This document shows positions 2,596-23,882 of a DNA stretch of 34,571 nt, piece after piece (within the stretch, counting starts at the first letter, position 1; each line of letters begins with the position of its first letter). The notes beneath the pieces were generated by a model that saw nothing but the letters and a program-made list of their open reading frames with translations, ran no database searches and had not been told where the DNA came from. Made by a program: the position numbers and the translations under genes. This stretch comes from a virus: positions 1 to 34,571 of the IMG/VR virus record IMGVR_UViG_3300037585_002933. One strand, 5' to 3'.

Positions 2596-2610
2596 CGTAA
2601 TATAAATATG
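2596..2610 (+). promoter_or_regulatory. Candidate structural-gene promoter or start motif
   Basis: CGTAATATAAATATG ends in the start codon of the scaffold gene. It matches CGTTATATARATATG seen at 5823 and 26891 in 14 of 15 positions, at the same 12-nt distance from the ATG. A transcript from it would be nearly leaderless. Confidence 0.45.
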
Positions 2611-3189
2611 AAAAATCCAGTAGAAATGCTTAAAGATATAAAAAAATTATTGGGTGTAGAACTTTCTGAAACAAAAGAGGTTAAACAAGAACCTAAAGAA
2701 ACGAAAGAAATAGTTTTGGCTCAATTAAATTTAGAAAATGGTACTATTCTTGAATCAGAGATATTTGAGAAAGGCAACGAAGTTTTTATTCTAACAGAAG
2801 ACGAGAAAGTGGCTCTTCCTGTTGGGGAATATAAACTTGAAGACGGAAGAACTTTAGAAGTAACAGAAGAGGGAATAATTAATTCTATCGAAGTTAAAGC
2901 AGAAGAATCTCCAGAGGAAGAAGAAAAAGAGGAGGAAGATATGGAAGAAGAAAAATATCCAACTCGTGAAGAATTTGATGCTCTTAAAGAAATGGTCGAG
3001 GGAATAAAAGAAGTAATGGGCGAAAAAAAGGAGGAAGAAGAAGAAGAATTAAAAGCTGAACTTTCTAAACCTGCAACGCAACCTATTAAACATACTCCTG
3101 AACAAAAAGAGATCAAAAAAGTATTACACGCACAAAAAAGAGGTAATAATACTTTAGATAGAGTTATGAGTAAAATATTAAATAAATAA
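2608..3189 (+). CDS. Putative capsid scaffolding protein
   Basis: 193 aa, very acidic. Residues about 95-150 are almost continuous Glu/Lys with predicted coiled coil, and the last 35-40 residues are basic and helical, as in scaffolding proteins that dock to the capsid through a basic C-terminal hook. It sits between protease and capsid genes, the usual scaffold position. Residues 40-90 form a separate compact segment with alternating hydrophobics. No enzyme motif is visible. The assignment rests on composition and position only. Confidence 0.65.
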   Translation: MKNPVEMLKDIKKLLGVELSETKEVKQEPKETKEIVLAQLNLENGTILESEIFEKGNEVFILTEDEKVALPVGEYKLEDGRTLEVTEEGIINSIEVKAEESPEEEEKEEEDMEEEKYPTREEFDALKEMVEGIKEVMGEKKEEEEEELKAELSKPATQPIKHTPEQKEIKKVLHAQKRGNNTLDRVMSKILNK

Positions 3190-4632: not shown

Positions 4633-5181
4633 ATGGCTTGCGATTTAACGTTGGGTAGAAAAGAACCTTGTAAGGACGTAGTTGGAGGAATTAAAGCAGT
4701 ATATTTCGTAGATTTCGGAGATATGGGAACTTTAAGTATTTCAAACGATAACCTTGTAGATGCAACAGGTACTTTTACTGCCTTTAAATATGAACTAAAA
4801 GGAAATAGCAGTTTTGAACAAACTGTTAATGCATCAAGAGAAAACGGTACAGTTTTTTACGAACAAACCTTAAATTTAACTTTAAAGAAACTGACAAAAG
4901 AAGATAACCAGGAGTTAAAATTATTGGCTTATGGAAGACCACAGGTGGCGATAGAAGATTATAATGGTAATTGTTGGTTTATGGGTAGAGAAAATGGAGC
5001 AGATGTTTCAGGTGGTACAATAGTAACAGGAGCAGCGATGGGTGATTTAGTAGGATATACACTTACTTTAACAGGACAGGAGACCTTACCTGCTAACTGG
5101 ATGAACAACGCAACTAGCGGAAATCCTTATGCAGGATTAAGTAGTGCGTCACCTACGATTACACAAGGTACTAATAGTTAA
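4633..5181 (+). CDS. Probable major tail tube protein
   Basis: 182 aa. The body is beta-rich and contains NASRENGTVFYEQTLNLTL and LAYGRPQVAIEDYNGN, blocks I associate with tail tube-like proteins of Bacteroidota phages (from memory). It begins MACDLTLGRKEPCKD with two N-terminal Cys. The C-terminal 30 residues are low-complexity Ser/Thr/Asn. It is flanked by terminators at 4581 and 5207, giving it its own short transcription interval next to the capsid gene, consistent with a high-copy virion protein. Confidence 0.6.
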   Translation: MACDLTLGRKEPCKDVVGGIKAVYFVDFGDMGTLSISNDNLVDATGTFTAFKYELKGNSSFEQTVNASRENGTVFYEQTLNLTLKKLTKEDNQELKLLAYGRPQVAIEDYNGNCWFMGRENGADVSGGTIVTGAAMGDLVGYTLTLTGQETLPANWMNNATSGNPYAGLSSASPTITQGTNS

Positions 5182-5206
5182 TATTTTTTCATTTGTTTGT
5201 TAAATT

Positions 5207-5233
5207 AAGGGGGGTTTTTGCTCCCCTTTTTTT
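5207..5233 (+). terminator. Rho-independent terminator after the tail tube gene
   Basis: AAGGGG (5207-5212) pairs with CCCCTT (5223-5228) around a loop containing TTTTTG, and a T run continues to 5233. It closes the structural segment before the small cassette at 5337. Confidence 0.8.
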
Positions 5234-5261
5234 GTTTAGTATTAAAATAGTTATTAATAAA

Positions 5262-5296
5262 TTTGGATAAGTCATTTATTTTTATTATCTTTATAA
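5262..5296 (+). promoter_or_regulatory. Candidate host-type promoter for the 5337 cassette
   Basis: TTTG at 5262-5265, then 20 bases, then TATCTTTATAA at 5286-5296. Bacteroidota housekeeping promoters have TTG near -33 and TAnnTTTG near -7; the spacing fits and the -7 box differs only in its last base. It lies just after a terminator and about 40 bases before the next ATG. The same 11-base -7 type box recurs at 13643, 14953, 17332 and 25435. Confidence 0.55.
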
Positions 5297-5336
5297 TAAG
5301 TTCTTTGACATACTGAAACAATTAAACAAATTAAAA

Positions 5337-5552
5337 ATGACTAGATATAGAATTTACCAAAAGGATGCTGATAGTCCAAATGAATGGATTGAAATTAGCG
5401 TTCAAAAATTTTTAGAACTTACTGAAGGTAGGGGTGCTTATAAAAAAGGTACTGCTCTTGAAGCTATAAAAAGTTCTATGAAAATTAGAACAAATTTTTC
5501 ATTTTTTAAATTAGATAATCCAAGAGGGTTTGAAAATTTATTTAATTATTAA
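5337..5552 (+). CDS. Small protein of unknown function (moron-like cassette)
   Basis: 71 aa, mixed alpha/beta composition, no Cys, no membrane segment. It starts with an alternating hydrophobic strand (MTRYRIYQKD) and carries a charged helix near residues 20-50. I do not recognise it. It is the first of two small genes lying between two terminators (5207 and 5773) and downstream of a host-type promoter, so it is probably expressed separately from the virion genes around it. A host-directed role such as superinfection exclusion or anti-defence is a guess. Confidence 0.6.
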   Translation: MTRYRIYQKDADSPNEWIEISVQKFLELTEGRGAYKKGTALEAIKSSMKIRTNFSFFKLDNPRGFENLFNY

Positions 5553-5590
5553 AGTCTTAAAATTTAATATGGAATTTAAATTTAATTAAA

Positions 5591-5761
5591 ATGAGTTATA
5601 TTAACACAAACATAGACATAATTTATGAATTACGTGATAACCAAAAAGGCACTTTATTAAAGGATAGTTATATTTTAGATGATTTAAAAGAATATCAATT
5701 AAAAAATTATTCAACTAAAAATACATACATTGAAGAGCATACTATTAGGTTAATTGAGTAA
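5591..5761 (+). CDS. Small protein of unknown function (moron-like cassette)
   Basis: 56 aa from ATG 5591, with an A/T-rich leader (TTTAATTAAA) directly before the start. It is hydrophilic and mostly helical, with YELRDNQKG and a Tyr/Lys/Asp-rich middle. It ends 11 bases before the terminator at 5773. I do not recognise it. Position after the 71-aa gene and before the terminator supports a two-gene unit. Confidence 0.5.
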   Translation: MSYINTNIDIIYELRDNQKGTLLKDSYILDDLKEYQLKNYSTKNTYIEEHTIRLIE

Positions 5762-5772
5762 TAAAAATAAAC

Positions 5773-5800
5773 AGGACAGCAGAAATGTTGTCCTTTTTTT
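5773..5800 (+). terminator. Rho-independent terminator closing the small cassette
   Basis: AGGACAGC (5773-5780) pairs with GTTGTCCT (5787-5794) with one G-U pair and a six-base loop AGAAAT, followed by T to 5800. It separates the small cassette from the portal operon. Confidence 0.9.
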
Positions 5801-5822
5801 ATGCAATATTAATTATTATCTT

Positions 5823-5837
5823 CGTTATATAAATATG
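5823..5837 (+). promoter_or_regulatory. Candidate structural-gene promoter or start motif
   Basis: CGTTATATAAATATG, ending in the start codon at 5835. It directly follows the terminator at 5773-5800, so transcription of the portal operon has to restart here or read through. The same motif occurs at 26891 and, with one change, at 2596. Confidence 0.5.
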
Positions 5838-6194
5838 AAAGTATTAACTACAACTGCATCAGCACAAACTTTTAAAATAATACCTAGAGAATATGTTACA
5901 ACAGCTACAATGTTGATAACAGATGATTCTACTAATACAACAACAACTTACGCAAGTATTACGCCAACAGTAAGCACAAATCATTTACAAATCAATCAAG
6001 CGTTTAGTCCAGTTTTAAAAGAGGGCAGGTTTTATGATTTAGTTTTAAAAAACACAAGCAATAAAATTATCTATAAAGATAAAATATTTTGTACAGTACA
6101 AGGTGTTGATCAAACGCAAAACGAAGAATACACAGTTAATAAAGATGTTTATACTTCTGATACTAGTTACGATAACGACTTTATAATATTATGA
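5835..6194 (+). CDS. Putative head-associated protein upstream of portal, unknown
   Basis: 119 aa. The frame is open further upstream to 5754, but that extension would run through the terminator hairpin, so ATG 5835 is the better start. The protein is beta-rich and Thr/Ser-rich, with REYVTTATMLITDDST, a Gly-Arg-Phe-Tyr-Asp turn near residue 65, and a C terminus SYDNDFIIL. I recall similar proteins immediately before portal genes in flavobacterial phages, without known function. Its stop overlaps the portal start (ATGA), so it is co-translated with portal and is probably a minor head or neck component. Confidence 0.55.
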   Translation: MKVLTTTASAQTFKIIPREYVTTATMLITDDSTNTTTTYASITPTVSTNHLQINQAFSPVLKEGRFYDLVLKNTSNKIIYKDKIFCTVQGVDQTQNEEYTVNKDVYTSDTSYDNDFIIL

Positions 6195-19614: not shown

Positions 19615-20145
19615 ATGAAAATTGAAATAAACAAACTCAAACTAAATTCTAACAATCCAAGATTAATAAAAGACTTTAGATTTAAAAAACTTGTAAACTC
19701 AATTAAAGAGTTTCCACAAATGTTAGAAAAAAGACCTGTTGTGGTTGATGAAGATTATATTATACTAGGAGGTAATATGAGATACCGAGCAGCCAAAGAA
19801 TTGGGAATTAAAAAAATAGACGTTATAGTTGTAAAGGATTGGACAGAAGATCAAAAAAAAGAATTTACAATAAAAGACAATGTGGGTTTTGGAGATTGGG
19901 ACTGGGACTTATTAGCTAACGATTGGGAGAATAATAAATTAAATGAATGGGGTTTAGAAGTTTGGGAAAATAAAGAATATGATTTAGATGAATTTTTTTC
20001 CGAAAAAGAAGAGGAAGAAGAAAAAGATTTTACAATTATATTAAAGTATAACAAAGATAAGTTTAAAAAAGTTAAAGATATTTTAAATTCAAAAAAAGGA
20101 ACTAAAGAAGAAATTATTTATAATTTATTAGTTAAAGACAAATGA
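19615..20145 (+). CDS. ParB/sulfiredoxin-type domain protein
   Basis: 176 aa. The N-terminal 90 residues fit the ParB N-terminal domain found in phage DNA-modification loci: LNSNNPRLIKD, RPVVVDEDYIILGGNMRYRAAKELG with the box GGNMRYRAA (52-60), and DNVGFGDWDWDLLAND. The C-terminal part is acidic (EEEEEKD) and helical. Such domains often accompany phage DNA methyltransferases; here the neighbour is the DpdA-like enzyme, overlapping by ATGA. I infer a link to modification, perhaps recognising DNA or nucleotide substrate. The domain may bind CTP like ParB, which cannot be judged here. Confidence 0.6.
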   Translation: MKIEINKLKLNSNNPRLIKDFRFKKLVNSIKEFPQMLEKRPVVVDEDYIILGGNMRYRAAKELGIKKIDVIVVKDWTEDQKKEFTIKDNVGFGDWDWDLLANDWENNKLNEWGLEVWENKEYDLDEFFSEKEEEEEKDFTIILKYNKDKFKKVKDILNSKKGTKEEIIYNLLVKDK

Positions 20146-20894
20146 AAATTTATTTAGCAGCACCTGCAAACACTTCCGACCCTTTCGTTAGAGATGAATT
20201 TTTTGATTTTTACTCTTTACAATCTTACCATTATATTAAAAAAGCATTTAGAAATGAGGGGAAAATACATAATAAATACAAAGATTTTATGTTAGATAGT
20301 GGTGTTTTTACTTATTTAACATCTCTTAAAGAAAAAGCTAAAACACTTGACTGGGAGAAATATATTTATGATTATGGGAGTTTTGTAAAAAAATATAAAA
20401 TACAAAAGTATGTAGAGGTTGATGTTGATAAAGTTTTAGGAGAAAAAGAGGTGGAAAAATTAACTAAAAAATTAGAAAAATTGGTTGGGTGGAAAACTAT
20501 ACCAGTTTGGCATATGAACAGGAGTTATGATAGTTGGTTAAAAATTTGTAAAGATTATGATTATATATGTTTCGGAGCATTTTTAACTGATGGATTAAAA
20601 CAATCAAAATTTCCTATGATTAACAAATTTTTATTTGATGCGGCTAAATCTAAAACAAAGGTACACGGTTTAGGGTTTACTTCATCAAAATTACTTCCTT
20701 TGTATAAATTTTATTCAGTAGATAGCAGCAGTTGGTCAGCAGGAAGAAGATTTGGAACTTTATATAATTTTAATAATGGTAAACTAACCACCAAGAGTTT
20801 TAAAAATAGGAGAGTTAAGGATTCTCATAAATTAAGCAGACACGATTTTTACGAGTGGGTAAAATATAGTCAATACGCAGAAATTAATCTTTAA
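20142..20894 (+). CDS. dpdA: DpdA-like DNA 7-deazaguanine transglycosylase
   Basis: 250 aa. It matches phage DpdA, a tRNA-guanine transglycosylase relative that swaps guanine in DNA for a 7-deazaguanine base. Visible marks are LDSGVF at 51-56 (Asp52 corresponds to the DSGGF aspartate of TGT enzymes), VEVDVD at 91-96, HMNRSYDSW at 124-132, VHGLGFTS at 174-181 and YSVDSSSW at 191-198. It begins MKIYLAAP. It is followed immediately by the preQ0/preQ1 pathway genes, all coupled by overlapping starts and stops, and preceded by the ParB-like gene. The exact base inserted is not shown by the sequence. Confidence 0.75.
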   Translation: MKIYLAAPANTSDPFVRDEFFDFYSLQSYHYIKKAFRNEGKIHNKYKDFMLDSGVFTYLTSLKEKAKTLDWEKYIYDYGSFVKKYKIQKYVEVDVDKVLGEKEVEKLTKKLEKLVGWKTIPVWHMNRSYDSWLKICKDYDYICFGAFLTDGLKQSKFPMINKFLFDAAKSKTKVHGLGFTSSKLLPLYKFYSVDSSSWSAGRRFGTLYNFNNGKLTTKSFKNRRVKDSHKLSRHDFYEWVKYSQYAEINL

Positions 20895-20905
20895 AAATAA
20901 ATAAA

Positions 20906-21304
20906 ATGGAAAACGAAAATTACATACCAATACACGGTTCAATGAAAAGACCTGCAGGACCTGATATAGGTGTTAGGGAAGTAGAAAAAGGAAGACAAAA
21001 TTGGACTGGAGGTAATTTAAAAATACATATAAGCACTTTAGAATTTACTTCTGTATGCCCTACTACTGGTCAGCCAGATTTTAATAACATAACCATAATA
21101 TACAAACCAGATAAGTTTTATATAGAATCTAAAACAATTAAATTCTATTTATGGAGTTTTAGAGATTATGGTGCTCATTGTGAAACTTTATCAAAGTTGA
21201 TAGCAGAACATTTAAACAAAGCAATAAAACCAAAAAAAATAAAAGTAATAGTAAATCAATTTCCAAGAGGTGGAGTAAAAATAATTTCAAAATATAAAAT
21301 ATGA
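20906..21304 (+). CDS. queF: QueF-type 7-cyano-7-deazaguanine reductase
   Basis: 132 aa, unimodular QueF. It would reduce preQ0 to preQ1 with NADPH. Cys51 in TSVCP (thioimide nucleophile), Asp58 in GQPDF and ESK at 74-76 (start of the NADPH motif) are intact, and Glu93 aligns with the substrate-binding Glu. The NHG part of the usual motif reads DYG (87-89), and the position of the conserved His next to Glu93 reads Cys92, with His91 one residue earlier. So it is QueF-family, but whether it reduces or acts as a QueF-like amide-transferring variant is uncertain. It overlaps queC by ATGA. Confidence 0.75.
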   Translation: MENENYIPIHGSMKRPAGPDIGVREVEKGRQNWTGGNLKIHISTLEFTSVCPTTGQPDFNNITIIYKPDKFYIESKTIKFYLWSFRDYGAHCETLSKLIAEHLNKAIKPKKIKVIVNQFPRGGVKIISKYKI

Positions 21305-21966
21305 AAAAAGCAATAGTACTATTATCAGGTGGACAAGATTCAACTACCTGCCTTTATTGGGCAAAAAAAGAATTTGAACAAATTCAAGCAATAGGGTTTG
21401 ATTATGGTCAAAGTCATAAACAGGAATTAATTCAAGCAAAAAAAATAGCTGATAACATTTCTGTTAAATATAAGATATTTGACGTAAAAGGATTACTCGC
21501 TAAATCTTCTTTAATAAATCATACAGACCATACAGAAGAAAGTTATTTAGATAGTAATTTACCTGCAAGTTTTACTGCAGGAAGAAATATATTATTTTTA
21601 ACAATAGCGGCAAGTTATGGTGCTGAAAAAGGAATTACAGATTTAGTGACTGGTGTCTGTCAAACAGATTACAGTGGGTATCCTGATTGTAGAAAAACAA
21701 CTATTGACAGCTTACAAACCACTTTGTCTTTAGGGTTAGGAGCAGGAGATTATAGAATACACACTCCATTAATGTATCTTGATAAAGCACAAACTTGGAA
21801 AATGGCAAAAGAATTAAATTGTTTAGATGTTATAATTAATGATACTATGACTGATTACAACGGAGATATGACAAAAAATGAATGGGGTTTTGGAAATAAA
21901 GATAATCCTGCTACAGAGTTACGAGTTAAAGGATATTATCAAGCCAAAGAAAAAGGGTGGATATGA
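21301..21966 (+). CDS. queC: QueC-type 7-cyano-7-deazaguanine synthase lacking zinc cysteines
   Basis: 221 aa. It would make preQ0 from 7-carboxy-7-deazaguanine, ATP and ammonia. The PP-loop SGGQDSTT (9-16), FDYGQSHKQE (33-42), FTAGRN (91-96) and VCQTDYSGYPDCR (119-131) are all typical of QueC. The C-terminal region that normally carries four zinc-binding Cys reads DTMTDYNGDM...WGFG...DNPATELRVKG (181-211) with no Cys in the positions of TCYNG, GCG and CPAC. The fold there is presumably kept without zinc. The stop overlaps queD (ATGA). Confidence 0.85.
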   Translation: MKKAIVLLSGGQDSTTCLYWAKKEFEQIQAIGFDYGQSHKQELIQAKKIADNISVKYKIFDVKGLLAKSSLINHTDHTEESYLDSNLPASFTAGRNILFLTIAASYGAEKGITDLVTGVCQTDYSGYPDCRKTTIDSLQTTLSLGLGAGDYRIHTPLMYLDKAQTWKMAKELNCLDVIINDTMTDYNGDMTKNEWGFGNKDNPATELRVKGYYQAKEKGWI

Positions 21967-22364
21967 TTAAAATAAGAAAAAAATATTATTTTTACGCAGG
22001 ACACAGAAACAAAGATGCAGGAGAAAAATGTGGCAGGTTACACGGACATACTTACGATATAGTTTGTGAGTTTGAATTTAAAGAAATAAAAAATGGAGTT
22101 ACAATGTTGTTTTCAGATATAGATAATATTGCTGAACCAATAATAAAAGAATACGATCATTATTTTTTATTATATAAAGAAGATCCTTTAGTTGATGTTT
22201 TTAATTTAGCAAACGAACCTTTTATTGAATTACCTTTTGAAACTTCAGCAGAGAATATGGCAATTTGGATTTATCAAAGAATAAAAAAACATTTACCTAT
22301 AAAAAGAATTGAACTATCTGAAACTAAATCAAGCACGGTTATTTATGAAGAAGATAGCAATTAG
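21963..22364 (+). CDS. queD: QueD-type 6-carboxytetrahydropterin synthase
   Basis: 133 aa from ATG 21963; an in-frame GTG at 21957 is less likely because the ATG is coupled to the queC stop. It converts dihydroneopterin triphosphate to 6-carboxytetrahydropterin. Zinc ligands His14, His27 and His29 (in YAGHRN and GRLHGHTYD), catalytic Cys23, the Asp65-His66 pair in EYDHYF and Glu120 in ELSETKSS are all present. Its 3' end overlaps queE by 20 bases. Confidence 0.85.
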   Translation: MIKIRKKYYFYAGHRNKDAGEKCGRLHGHTYDIVCEFEFKEIKNGVTMLFSDIDNIAEPIIKEYDHYFLLYKEDPLVDVFNLANEPFIELPFETSAENMAIWIYQRIKKHLPIKRIELSETKSSTVIYEEDSN

Positions 22365-23073
22365 TGAGGTTTTTTATTCTATTCAAGGAGAGGGTAAGAC
22401 CGTTGGAATACCAAGTGTATTTGTTAGATTAGGAGGGTGTAATTTAATGTGCGGTGGTATGGGAACTCAATTTGATGGAGAACTGCATAATAACGCACGA
22501 TGGAGATGTGATACTGTTGAGGTGTGGATGAAAGCAAAAAGCAAAGAGTTTAAAGATGTTTTAAATAAAGAGTGTATTGATGCTATAAAAAACAACGCTC
22601 ATATTATAATAACAGGTGGAGAGCCAATGATGCAACAAATTCAAATAATAGAATTTATAAATTATATAAAAACCAATATAAACAAAAAAGCATATTTTGA
22701 AGTTGAAACCAATGGAACTATAATGCCAAATAATTTTTTATTAAATGAAATTAATTTATGGAATTGTAGTCCTAAACTATCTAATAGTGGTAATGATAAA
22801 TCTTTAACTTATAAACCTGATGTAATAAAAAGACTTAATAAACAAAATACTATTTTTAAATTTGTAGTAGATAGTAAACAAGATTGGCTGGAAATAAAAA
22901 AAGATTATTTAATGTTAATAGATAAAGAAAAAGTTTATTTAATGCCTGCAGGAGAAAATCAAAAACTATTAAACGATAATAAAAAAATAATAGTTGAGTT
23001 AGCTAGAAATAATTATTTAAATTTTACAACAAGATTACATATAGACGTATGGAACAAAAAAACAGGAGTATAA
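22345..23073 (+). CDS. queE: QueE-type 7-carboxy-7-deazaguanine synthase with atypical Cys motif
   Basis: 242 aa, radical SAM family. The start is ATG 22345 (MKKIAISEVFYSIQGEG, the canonical QueE opening); an upstream TTG at 22309 only adds sequence overlapping queD. GGCNLMCGG then, after an 18-residue spacer, RWRCDT gives CX3CX18C for the iron-sulfur cluster instead of CX3CX2C. IIITGGEPMMQ carries the SAM-binding GGE motif, and EVETNGT and NCSPKLS are typical QueE blocks. It makes CDG, the precursor of preQ0. The stop overlaps folE by TAATG. Confidence 0.85.
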   Translation: MKKIAISEVFYSIQGEGKTVGIPSVFVRLGGCNLMCGGMGTQFDGELHNNARWRCDTVEVWMKAKSKEFKDVLNKECIDAIKNNAHIIITGGEPMMQQIQIIEFINYIKTNINKKAYFEVETNGTIMPNNFLLNEINLWNCSPKLSNSGNDKSLTYKPDVIKRLNKQNTIFKFVVDSKQDWLEIKKDYLMLIDKEKVYLMPAGENQKLLNDNKKIIVELARNNYLNFTTRLHIDVWNKKTGV

Positions 23074-23882
23074 TGGATTGGATTGAAATAATAGAAAGAG
23101 TCAAAAAAATTAAAACAAAATATCCTAATGGTAAGTTTTGGGGAGTTCCAAGAGGTGGTCAGGTTATATCAGGACTTTTAGGAAATCCAGTTAATACAAT
23201 AGAGGAAGCAGATGTTATTGTAGATGATTTAATTGACAGCGGAACAACTTATAAAAGATATAAAAAATACAATAAACCTTTTGAAGTTTTAATAGATAAA
23301 AGAAAAGAAAAAAGAGATTGGATTATTTTTCCGTGGGAAGATTCGCAAGGAGATATACAAGACAACGTTATAAGAATGTTACAATATTTTGGAGAGGATG
23401 TTAATAGAGAGGGATTAAAAGATACACCAAAAAGATATATTAAATTTTTTGAACAGTTTTTTAATCAACCTAACTGGAAGTTTACAACATTTAATAGTGA
23501 GGGGTACGATGAAATGATTATACAAACAAATATTCCTTTTTATTCTTTATGCGAACATCATATAGCACCTTTTTTTGGCTATGGTCATATAGCATATGTT
23601 CCGAATAAAAAAATAGTAGGGTTAAGTAAATTAGCAAGAACAATAGATAAATTTTCTCATAAATTACAAAACCAAGAAAGAATAACAACACAGGTTGCAA
23701 ATTTTTTAAATAAAGAGTTAGAACCAAAAGGAGTAGCTGTATCTTTAACTGCAAAACATATGTGTATGGAAATGAGGGGGGTAAAGAAACACGACACTTG
23801 GACAACAACAAACAAATTAATAGGAGTGTTTAACGATGAACACGAAACAAGATTAGAATTTTTTAATAGTATAAAAAAATGA
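23073..23882 (+). CDS. folE: Phosphoribosyltransferase-GTP cyclohydrolase I fusion
   Basis: 269 aa from ATG 23073, coupled to the queE stop; an in-frame ATG at 23049 would add eight residues inside queE. Residues 1-90 look like a small type I phosphoribosyltransferase: FWGVPRGGQVISG (22-34) and the PRPP loop VIVDDLIDSGTT (48-59). Residues about 96-267 are GTP cyclohydrolase I, which starts the pathway from GTP: SLCEHHIAPFFG with Cys160 and His163, VGLSKLAR, and Cys231 in AKHMCME as third zinc ligand, then the RGV block. The fusion is the notable feature. It overlaps the terminase small subunit (ATGA). Confidence 0.85.
   Translation: MDWIEIIERVKKIKTKYPNGKFWGVPRGGQVISGLLGNPVNTIEEADVIVDDLIDSGTTYKRYKKYNKPFEVLIDKRKEKRDWIIFPWEDSQGDIQDNVIRMLQYFGEDVNREGLKDTPKRYIKFFEQFFNQPNWKFTTFNSEGYDEMIIQTNIPFYSLCEHHIAPFFGYGHIAYVPNKKIVGLSKLARTIDKFSHKLQNQERITTQVANFLNKELEPKGVAVSLTAKHMCMEMRGVKKHDTWTTTNKLIGVFNDEHETRLEFFNSIKK

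Follow-up and report, generated by a model that had tools for sequence, protein, structure and literature searches.

What happens to the guanine that leaves phage DNA when a 7-deazaguanine base takes its place? The exchange by DpdA should release guanine, as has been proposed (PMC6884629), and the fusion of a phosphoribosyltransferase (PRTase)-like domain to the GTP cyclohydrolase I (FolE) of a marine phage's deazaguanine cluster raises the question of its fate.

The fusion gene and its surroundings

In the window (the whole stretch of viral DNA analysed, 34,571 nt) the fusion is an ORF of 269 residues on the + strand at 23073–23882, its stop codon ending at 23882. The start codon (ATG at 23073) overlaps the stop codon of QueE (TAATG), and a Shine-Dalgarno-like AGGAG (23064–23068, read from the sequence) lies 4 nt 5′ of it; an alternative start at 23049 (277 aa) was rejected because the extra stretch overlaps QueE and holds the AGGAG site. 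Residues 1–90 (23073–23342) make up the PRTase-like domain, assigned by profile, alignment, model and fold comparison, with an intact PRGG pyrophosphate loop (residues 26–29) and an intact PRPP loop (VIVDDLIDSGTT, residues 48–59), and with K76, W83 and FPWE at 86–89 as its other marks. The FolE domain occupies residues 96–269 (23358–23879): GTP_cyclohydroI is complete at 96–267 (PF01227 E = 3.7e-63, 212.6 bits against a cut-off of 27) and the TIGR00063 cut-off of 181.6 bits is passed with 198.7. C160, H162, H163, H229 and C231, the counterparts of zinc-ligand and catalytic residues in the E. coli enzyme, are invariant. The ORF, the motifs and the PF01227 match thus bear out the original prediction of a PRGG segment and PRPP loop in about 90 residues ahead of a complete FolE.

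Upstream on the same strand lie genes for a DpdA-type DNA guanine transglycosylase (20142–20894, phrog_887 E = 2.3e-42), a QueF-II type preQ0 reductase (20906–21304, TIGR03139 E = 2.6e-30, above cut-off), the preQ0 synthase QueC (21301–21966, PF06508 E = 9.1e-59), the 6-carboxytetrahydropterin synthase QueD (21966–22364, PF01242 E = 1.6e-24) and the radical SAM CDG synthase QueE (22345–23073, phrog_2076 E = 3e-57). The order is therefore DpdA, QueF, QueC, QueD, QueE and fusion, followed by terminase genes, and DpdA is accompanied by FolE, QueD, QueE and QueC, as in a DpdA cluster. As the QueF of the window scores as QueF-II (preQ1 synthase) above the cut-off, the modified base in the DNA of this phage may, judging from sequence, be preQ1. 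A ParB-N-domain protein is encoded immediately upstream of DpdA (19615–20145); such a protein is present in 54 of the 122 relatives' loci with DpdA, 300–900 bp before DpdA in 45 of these 54, and could guide DpdA to its sites. Elsewhere in the window, ORFs 1819–2406 and 2608–3189 are pieces of a split gene, matching N- and C-terminal portions of a single phage family (phrog_24921).

A truncated Gpt-type domain

Single-sequence searches identify the N-terminal domain poorly: PF00156 matches at E = 0.008 (16.0 bits, under the gathering score of 26.3), the xanthine-guanine phosphoribosyltransferase (XPRT) model NF006613 is absent from the matches of the full-length protein in the curated model search, and a phmmer search of the PDB with the single domain sequence gives no match, XPRT being reached by profiles only. 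With a profile built from 16 sequences of just this domain the top PDB matches are XPRTs (5xtk, E = 1.2e-8; 1a95, E = 3.8e-7), and HMM–HMM comparison with E. coli Gpt by hhalign gives 97.5–97.9% probability, columns 3–104 aligning with Gpt 4–139 (97.5%) so that both ends are covered. AlphaFold models the domain alone with pLDDT 93.5 and pTM 0.85; E. coli and Yersinia XGPRT are the top Foldseek matches of this model (E = 5e-4), and VIA-align superposes it on XGPRT with Z 9.4–10.5 and rmsd 2.5–2.7 over 91–94 of its 95 residues. On the profiles and the predicted structure, then, the N-terminal domain is a truncated XPRT of the E. coli Gpt type, and the assignment as a PRTase domain survives the test of structure prediction. 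Sharpening it to Gpt/XPRT makes guanine or xanthine the likely base.

The active-site residues are the most conserved portion of the domain. R27, G29, D51, D52, D55, G57, T59, W83 and E89 are kept in 142–144 of the 144 distinct fused domains from IMG/VR; among the equivalents of the Gpt base contacts Lys115, Trp134 and Asp140, K76 is found in 133 of the 144 and W83 and E89 (E for D) in all. In the alignment every Gpt-like contact position for pyrophosphate, ribose phosphate and 6-oxopurine base is retained, the conserved residues corresponding to Gpt R37–G39, D88, D89, D92, T96, K115, W134, W139 and D140, positions whose roles are established for 6-oxopurine PRTases.

What has been lost is equally consistent. 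All 144 fused domains lack the stretch with the flexible loop (Gpt 61–83) together with the strand that precedes it, and little is left of the hood (~119–131); the RGG-to-DD spacing is 20–33 residues in fused members and 48 in Gpt. Only three core strands (22–24, 48–54 and 70–75) appear in the model, two core strands being gone. The PRPP motif sits at the end of core strand 48–54, as in a type I PRTase; the domain has neither the flexible loop that belongs to that type nor the five or more parallel strands of its core (PMC2228302). In HPRTs the flexible loop reportedly closes over the active site while catalysis proceeds (PMC6783271), and with this loop and two strands gone catalysis by the domain is not assured.

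Distribution of fused, solo and loop-containing forms

The original prediction treated the fusion as an exception among FolE proteins; searching other phages showed it instead to be a recurrent phage architecture, with 144 distinct fused domains and four distinct solo domains in IMG/VR and the full-length architecture in 33 isolate-phage records (tblastn), related phages in these counts not being independent. The isolates infect Vibrio, Pseudomonas, Sphingomonas, Stenotrophomonas, Xanthomonas and Variovorax, and some are Queuovirinae. They usually have the fusion annotated as plain GTP cyclohydrolase, and in PaMx25 the annotated folE start falls inside the open frame. In most phages FolE lacks the N-terminal domain. 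Among the best 80 FolE matches in bacterial and archaeal genome contigs, most of which were ordinary FolE, only one contig (L091) has the fusion, in a phage-like order (QueE-QueC-QueD-fusion-DpdA); the fusion is nearly restricted to phages.

The domain also occurs on its own at various positions in these clusters: two loci (L237/L238) read QueD-QueE-FolE-ParB-DpdA-QueC-PRT-terminase, another (L221) reads QueC-PRT-terminase, and in L311–L319 solo loop-less PRTs lie within DpdA clusters, mostly beside QueD and QueE. Flavobacterium phage immuto has QueD, QueE, PRT, FolE and DpdA. Two solo relatives have a damaged PRPP loop (DDIADKGNV in L319 and DDINDTSKT in CP220). Locus L234 is ordered QueD-PRT-FolE with a FolE-like tail remaining on the PRT: the solo loop-less PRT at 4977–5438 ends in this tail (DENIDRIVQYYDKW...), and an intact FolE comes next at 5451–5999, as though a fusion had broken and another FolE had taken over. 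A tree built on the columns that every form has groups the fused domains with L234 and L238/L246 (support 98/97), so that both fusion and separation have occurred. A clade of FolE-fused forms alone is rejected (p-AU 0.004), three solo forms nesting inside; that the loop was lost only once is not rejected (p-AU 0.109).

DpdA is present in 57 of 61 wide-flank loci and a family search adds three of the four remaining records, a co-occurrence that is expected anyway because every member was found in deazaguanine clusters, the counts being also biased to FolE neighbours since the queries that collected the loci were FolE or this domain. Longer PRTs that contain the loop and share the WIVFPWE ending were found in Brevundimonas phage StAshley, Cellulophaga phage phi13:1 and L321–L336. 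All records searched with such a PRT, save one short fragment, also have FolE and QueE, which ties the family to deazaguanine clusters beyond the fusion. The phrog_887 DpdA profile found nothing in the loop-containing-PRT genomes searched, where divergent transglycosylases are possible, and the phrog_7068 profile matched in no record at all and is therefore uninformative. A clean split between loop-less forms with DpdA and loop-containing forms without it (by phrog_887) is not upheld, because the DpdA of immuto is itself missed by phrog_887, because Campylobacter phage CP220 encodes a protein (54681–55439) 44% identical to the annotated immuto DpdA and because phi13:1 and StAshley have weak likenesses to it. 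The latter are hypothetical proteins, phi13:1 gp036 (L346:6457–7236) and StAshley_00090 (L345:3476–4276), weakly similar to immuto-type DpdA (phrog_19058), and by this similarity are candidate divergent DNA guanine transglycosylases.

Function and comparison with known systems

On this sequence evidence the phage 7-deazaguanine pathway includes the domain as a recurring component. The reading we prefer, with a probability of roughly 0.4, is that the domain would be a minimal Gpt-type purine PRTase recycling the guanine released by DpdA. The cluster would make preQ0/preQ1 and put it in the place of guanine in phage DNA; the domain would bind the displaced guanine with PRPP and convert it to GMP, and host kinases would return GMP to GTP, the substrate of FolE. 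As DpdA should set free one guanine for each base modified and FolE spends one GTP per preQ0, the domain would close the cycle; with no flexible loop, a slow reaction or cover from a partner chain would be needed. Recycling is favoured by the solo forms, by the link to DpdA, by the FolE and QueE that accompany the loop-containing relatives, and by sites for pyrophosphate, PRPP and base that are all intact: a two-substrate enzyme needs a pyrophosphate loop as well as a base pocket, and the domain keeps the two, and solo loop-less forms at varied places in clusters are as expected of an independent pathway step. Salvage of DpdA-released guanine, already suggested in the original prediction, is thus compatible with the kept sites and the near-constant DpdA, but sits uneasily with the missing catalytic loop and strands and with the damaged PRPP loops of two solo relatives.

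The same losses give weight to a close rival, suggested by analogy and possible though at rather less than even odds, namely that the domain performs no catalysis and is a regulator that would bind a ligand (GMP, ppGpp, or guanine together with PRPP) and tune FolE as GFRP regulates animal GTP cyclohydrolase I, solo copies then serving as separate regulatory subunits. Loop and strands are absent from every fused member while the ligand-contact positions are near-invariant, the domain with its short linker stands in for the usual N-terminal extension of FolE, and B. subtilis HPRT retains wild-type binding of pppGpp after part of loop II is deleted (PMC6783271), so that a pocket need not have the loop in order to bind. 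The near-invariant RGG pyrophosphate loop and the Asp at the catalytic position nevertheless exceed the needs of a GMP sensor, and in some clusters the solo forms lie away from folE.

It is unlikely that the base handled by the domain is a deazaguanine (preQ0 or CDG), which it would either bind or turn into a ribotide, for feedback or as a way into DNA at the nucleotide level. The domain does occur in deazaguanine clusters, many loop-containing relatives have Asn in place of the base-contact Lys of Gpt, and the loop-containing PRT gene lies near ribonucleotide reductase in phi13:1 and in StAshley, where FolE and a dNMP kinase are also its neighbours. The group to which the window belongs, however, retains the Lys and Asp with which Gpt-type enzymes contact O6 and N7, a ribotide is unnecessary given that DpdA inserts the base in free form, and these two loop-containing isolates have possible divergent DpdA proteins. 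That the domain is a structural leftover merely stabilising FolE is very improbable, since its active-site residues are its most conserved part and solo copies persist in the same clusters, even if it is small and loop-less and FolE does without it in most phages.

No phosphoribosyltransferase is mentioned in the phage deazaguanine papers PMC6884629, PMC7472734 and PMC13329287 (the word phosphoribosyl is absent from the first, Hutinet 2019), and open-licence PMC papers yielded nothing relevant to the FolE fusion. We tentatively propose, as somewhat doubtful in its full extent, that deazaguanine phages carry an undescribed pathway component, a loop-less XPRT, fused or free, which would be the smallest working purine PRTase and would feed DNA-expelled guanine into the supply of FolE. 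If so, a DNA modification pathway that counters restriction and has been much studied would gain a component so far overlooked. Should the loop-less domain prove active, type I PRTases could no longer be held to need the flexible loop; should it prove inactive, FolE would carry a nucleotide sensor made by the phage.

Compared with E. coli Gpt (PDB 1A95, 1NUL, 4JLS) the likeness lies in the fold order, the aligned pairs (fusion/Gpt) being PRGG/SRGG, DDxxDSGxT/DDLVDTGGT, K76/K115, W83/W134, W88/W139 and E89/D140, whereas Gpt has the flexible loop (61–83) and hood (~119–131) and the fusion domain has neither, has three core strands and is joined to FolE. The solo phosphoribosyl transferases of phrog_8995 (phi13:1, StAshley) share its family, its WIVFPWE end and its occurrence in phages with FolE and QueE, but are separate proteins with the loop region. 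With ordinary GTP cyclohydrolase I (PF01227, TIGR00063) the fusion shares a complete domain and every invariant Cys and His, and differs in having a PRTase-like domain and short linker where an N-terminal extension is usual. Finally, set against the phage 7-deazaguanine clusters described previously (Hutinet 2019; PMC6884629), the window holds all six genes consecutively (DpdA, FolE, QueD, QueE, QueC and QueF) and adds the XPRT-like component.
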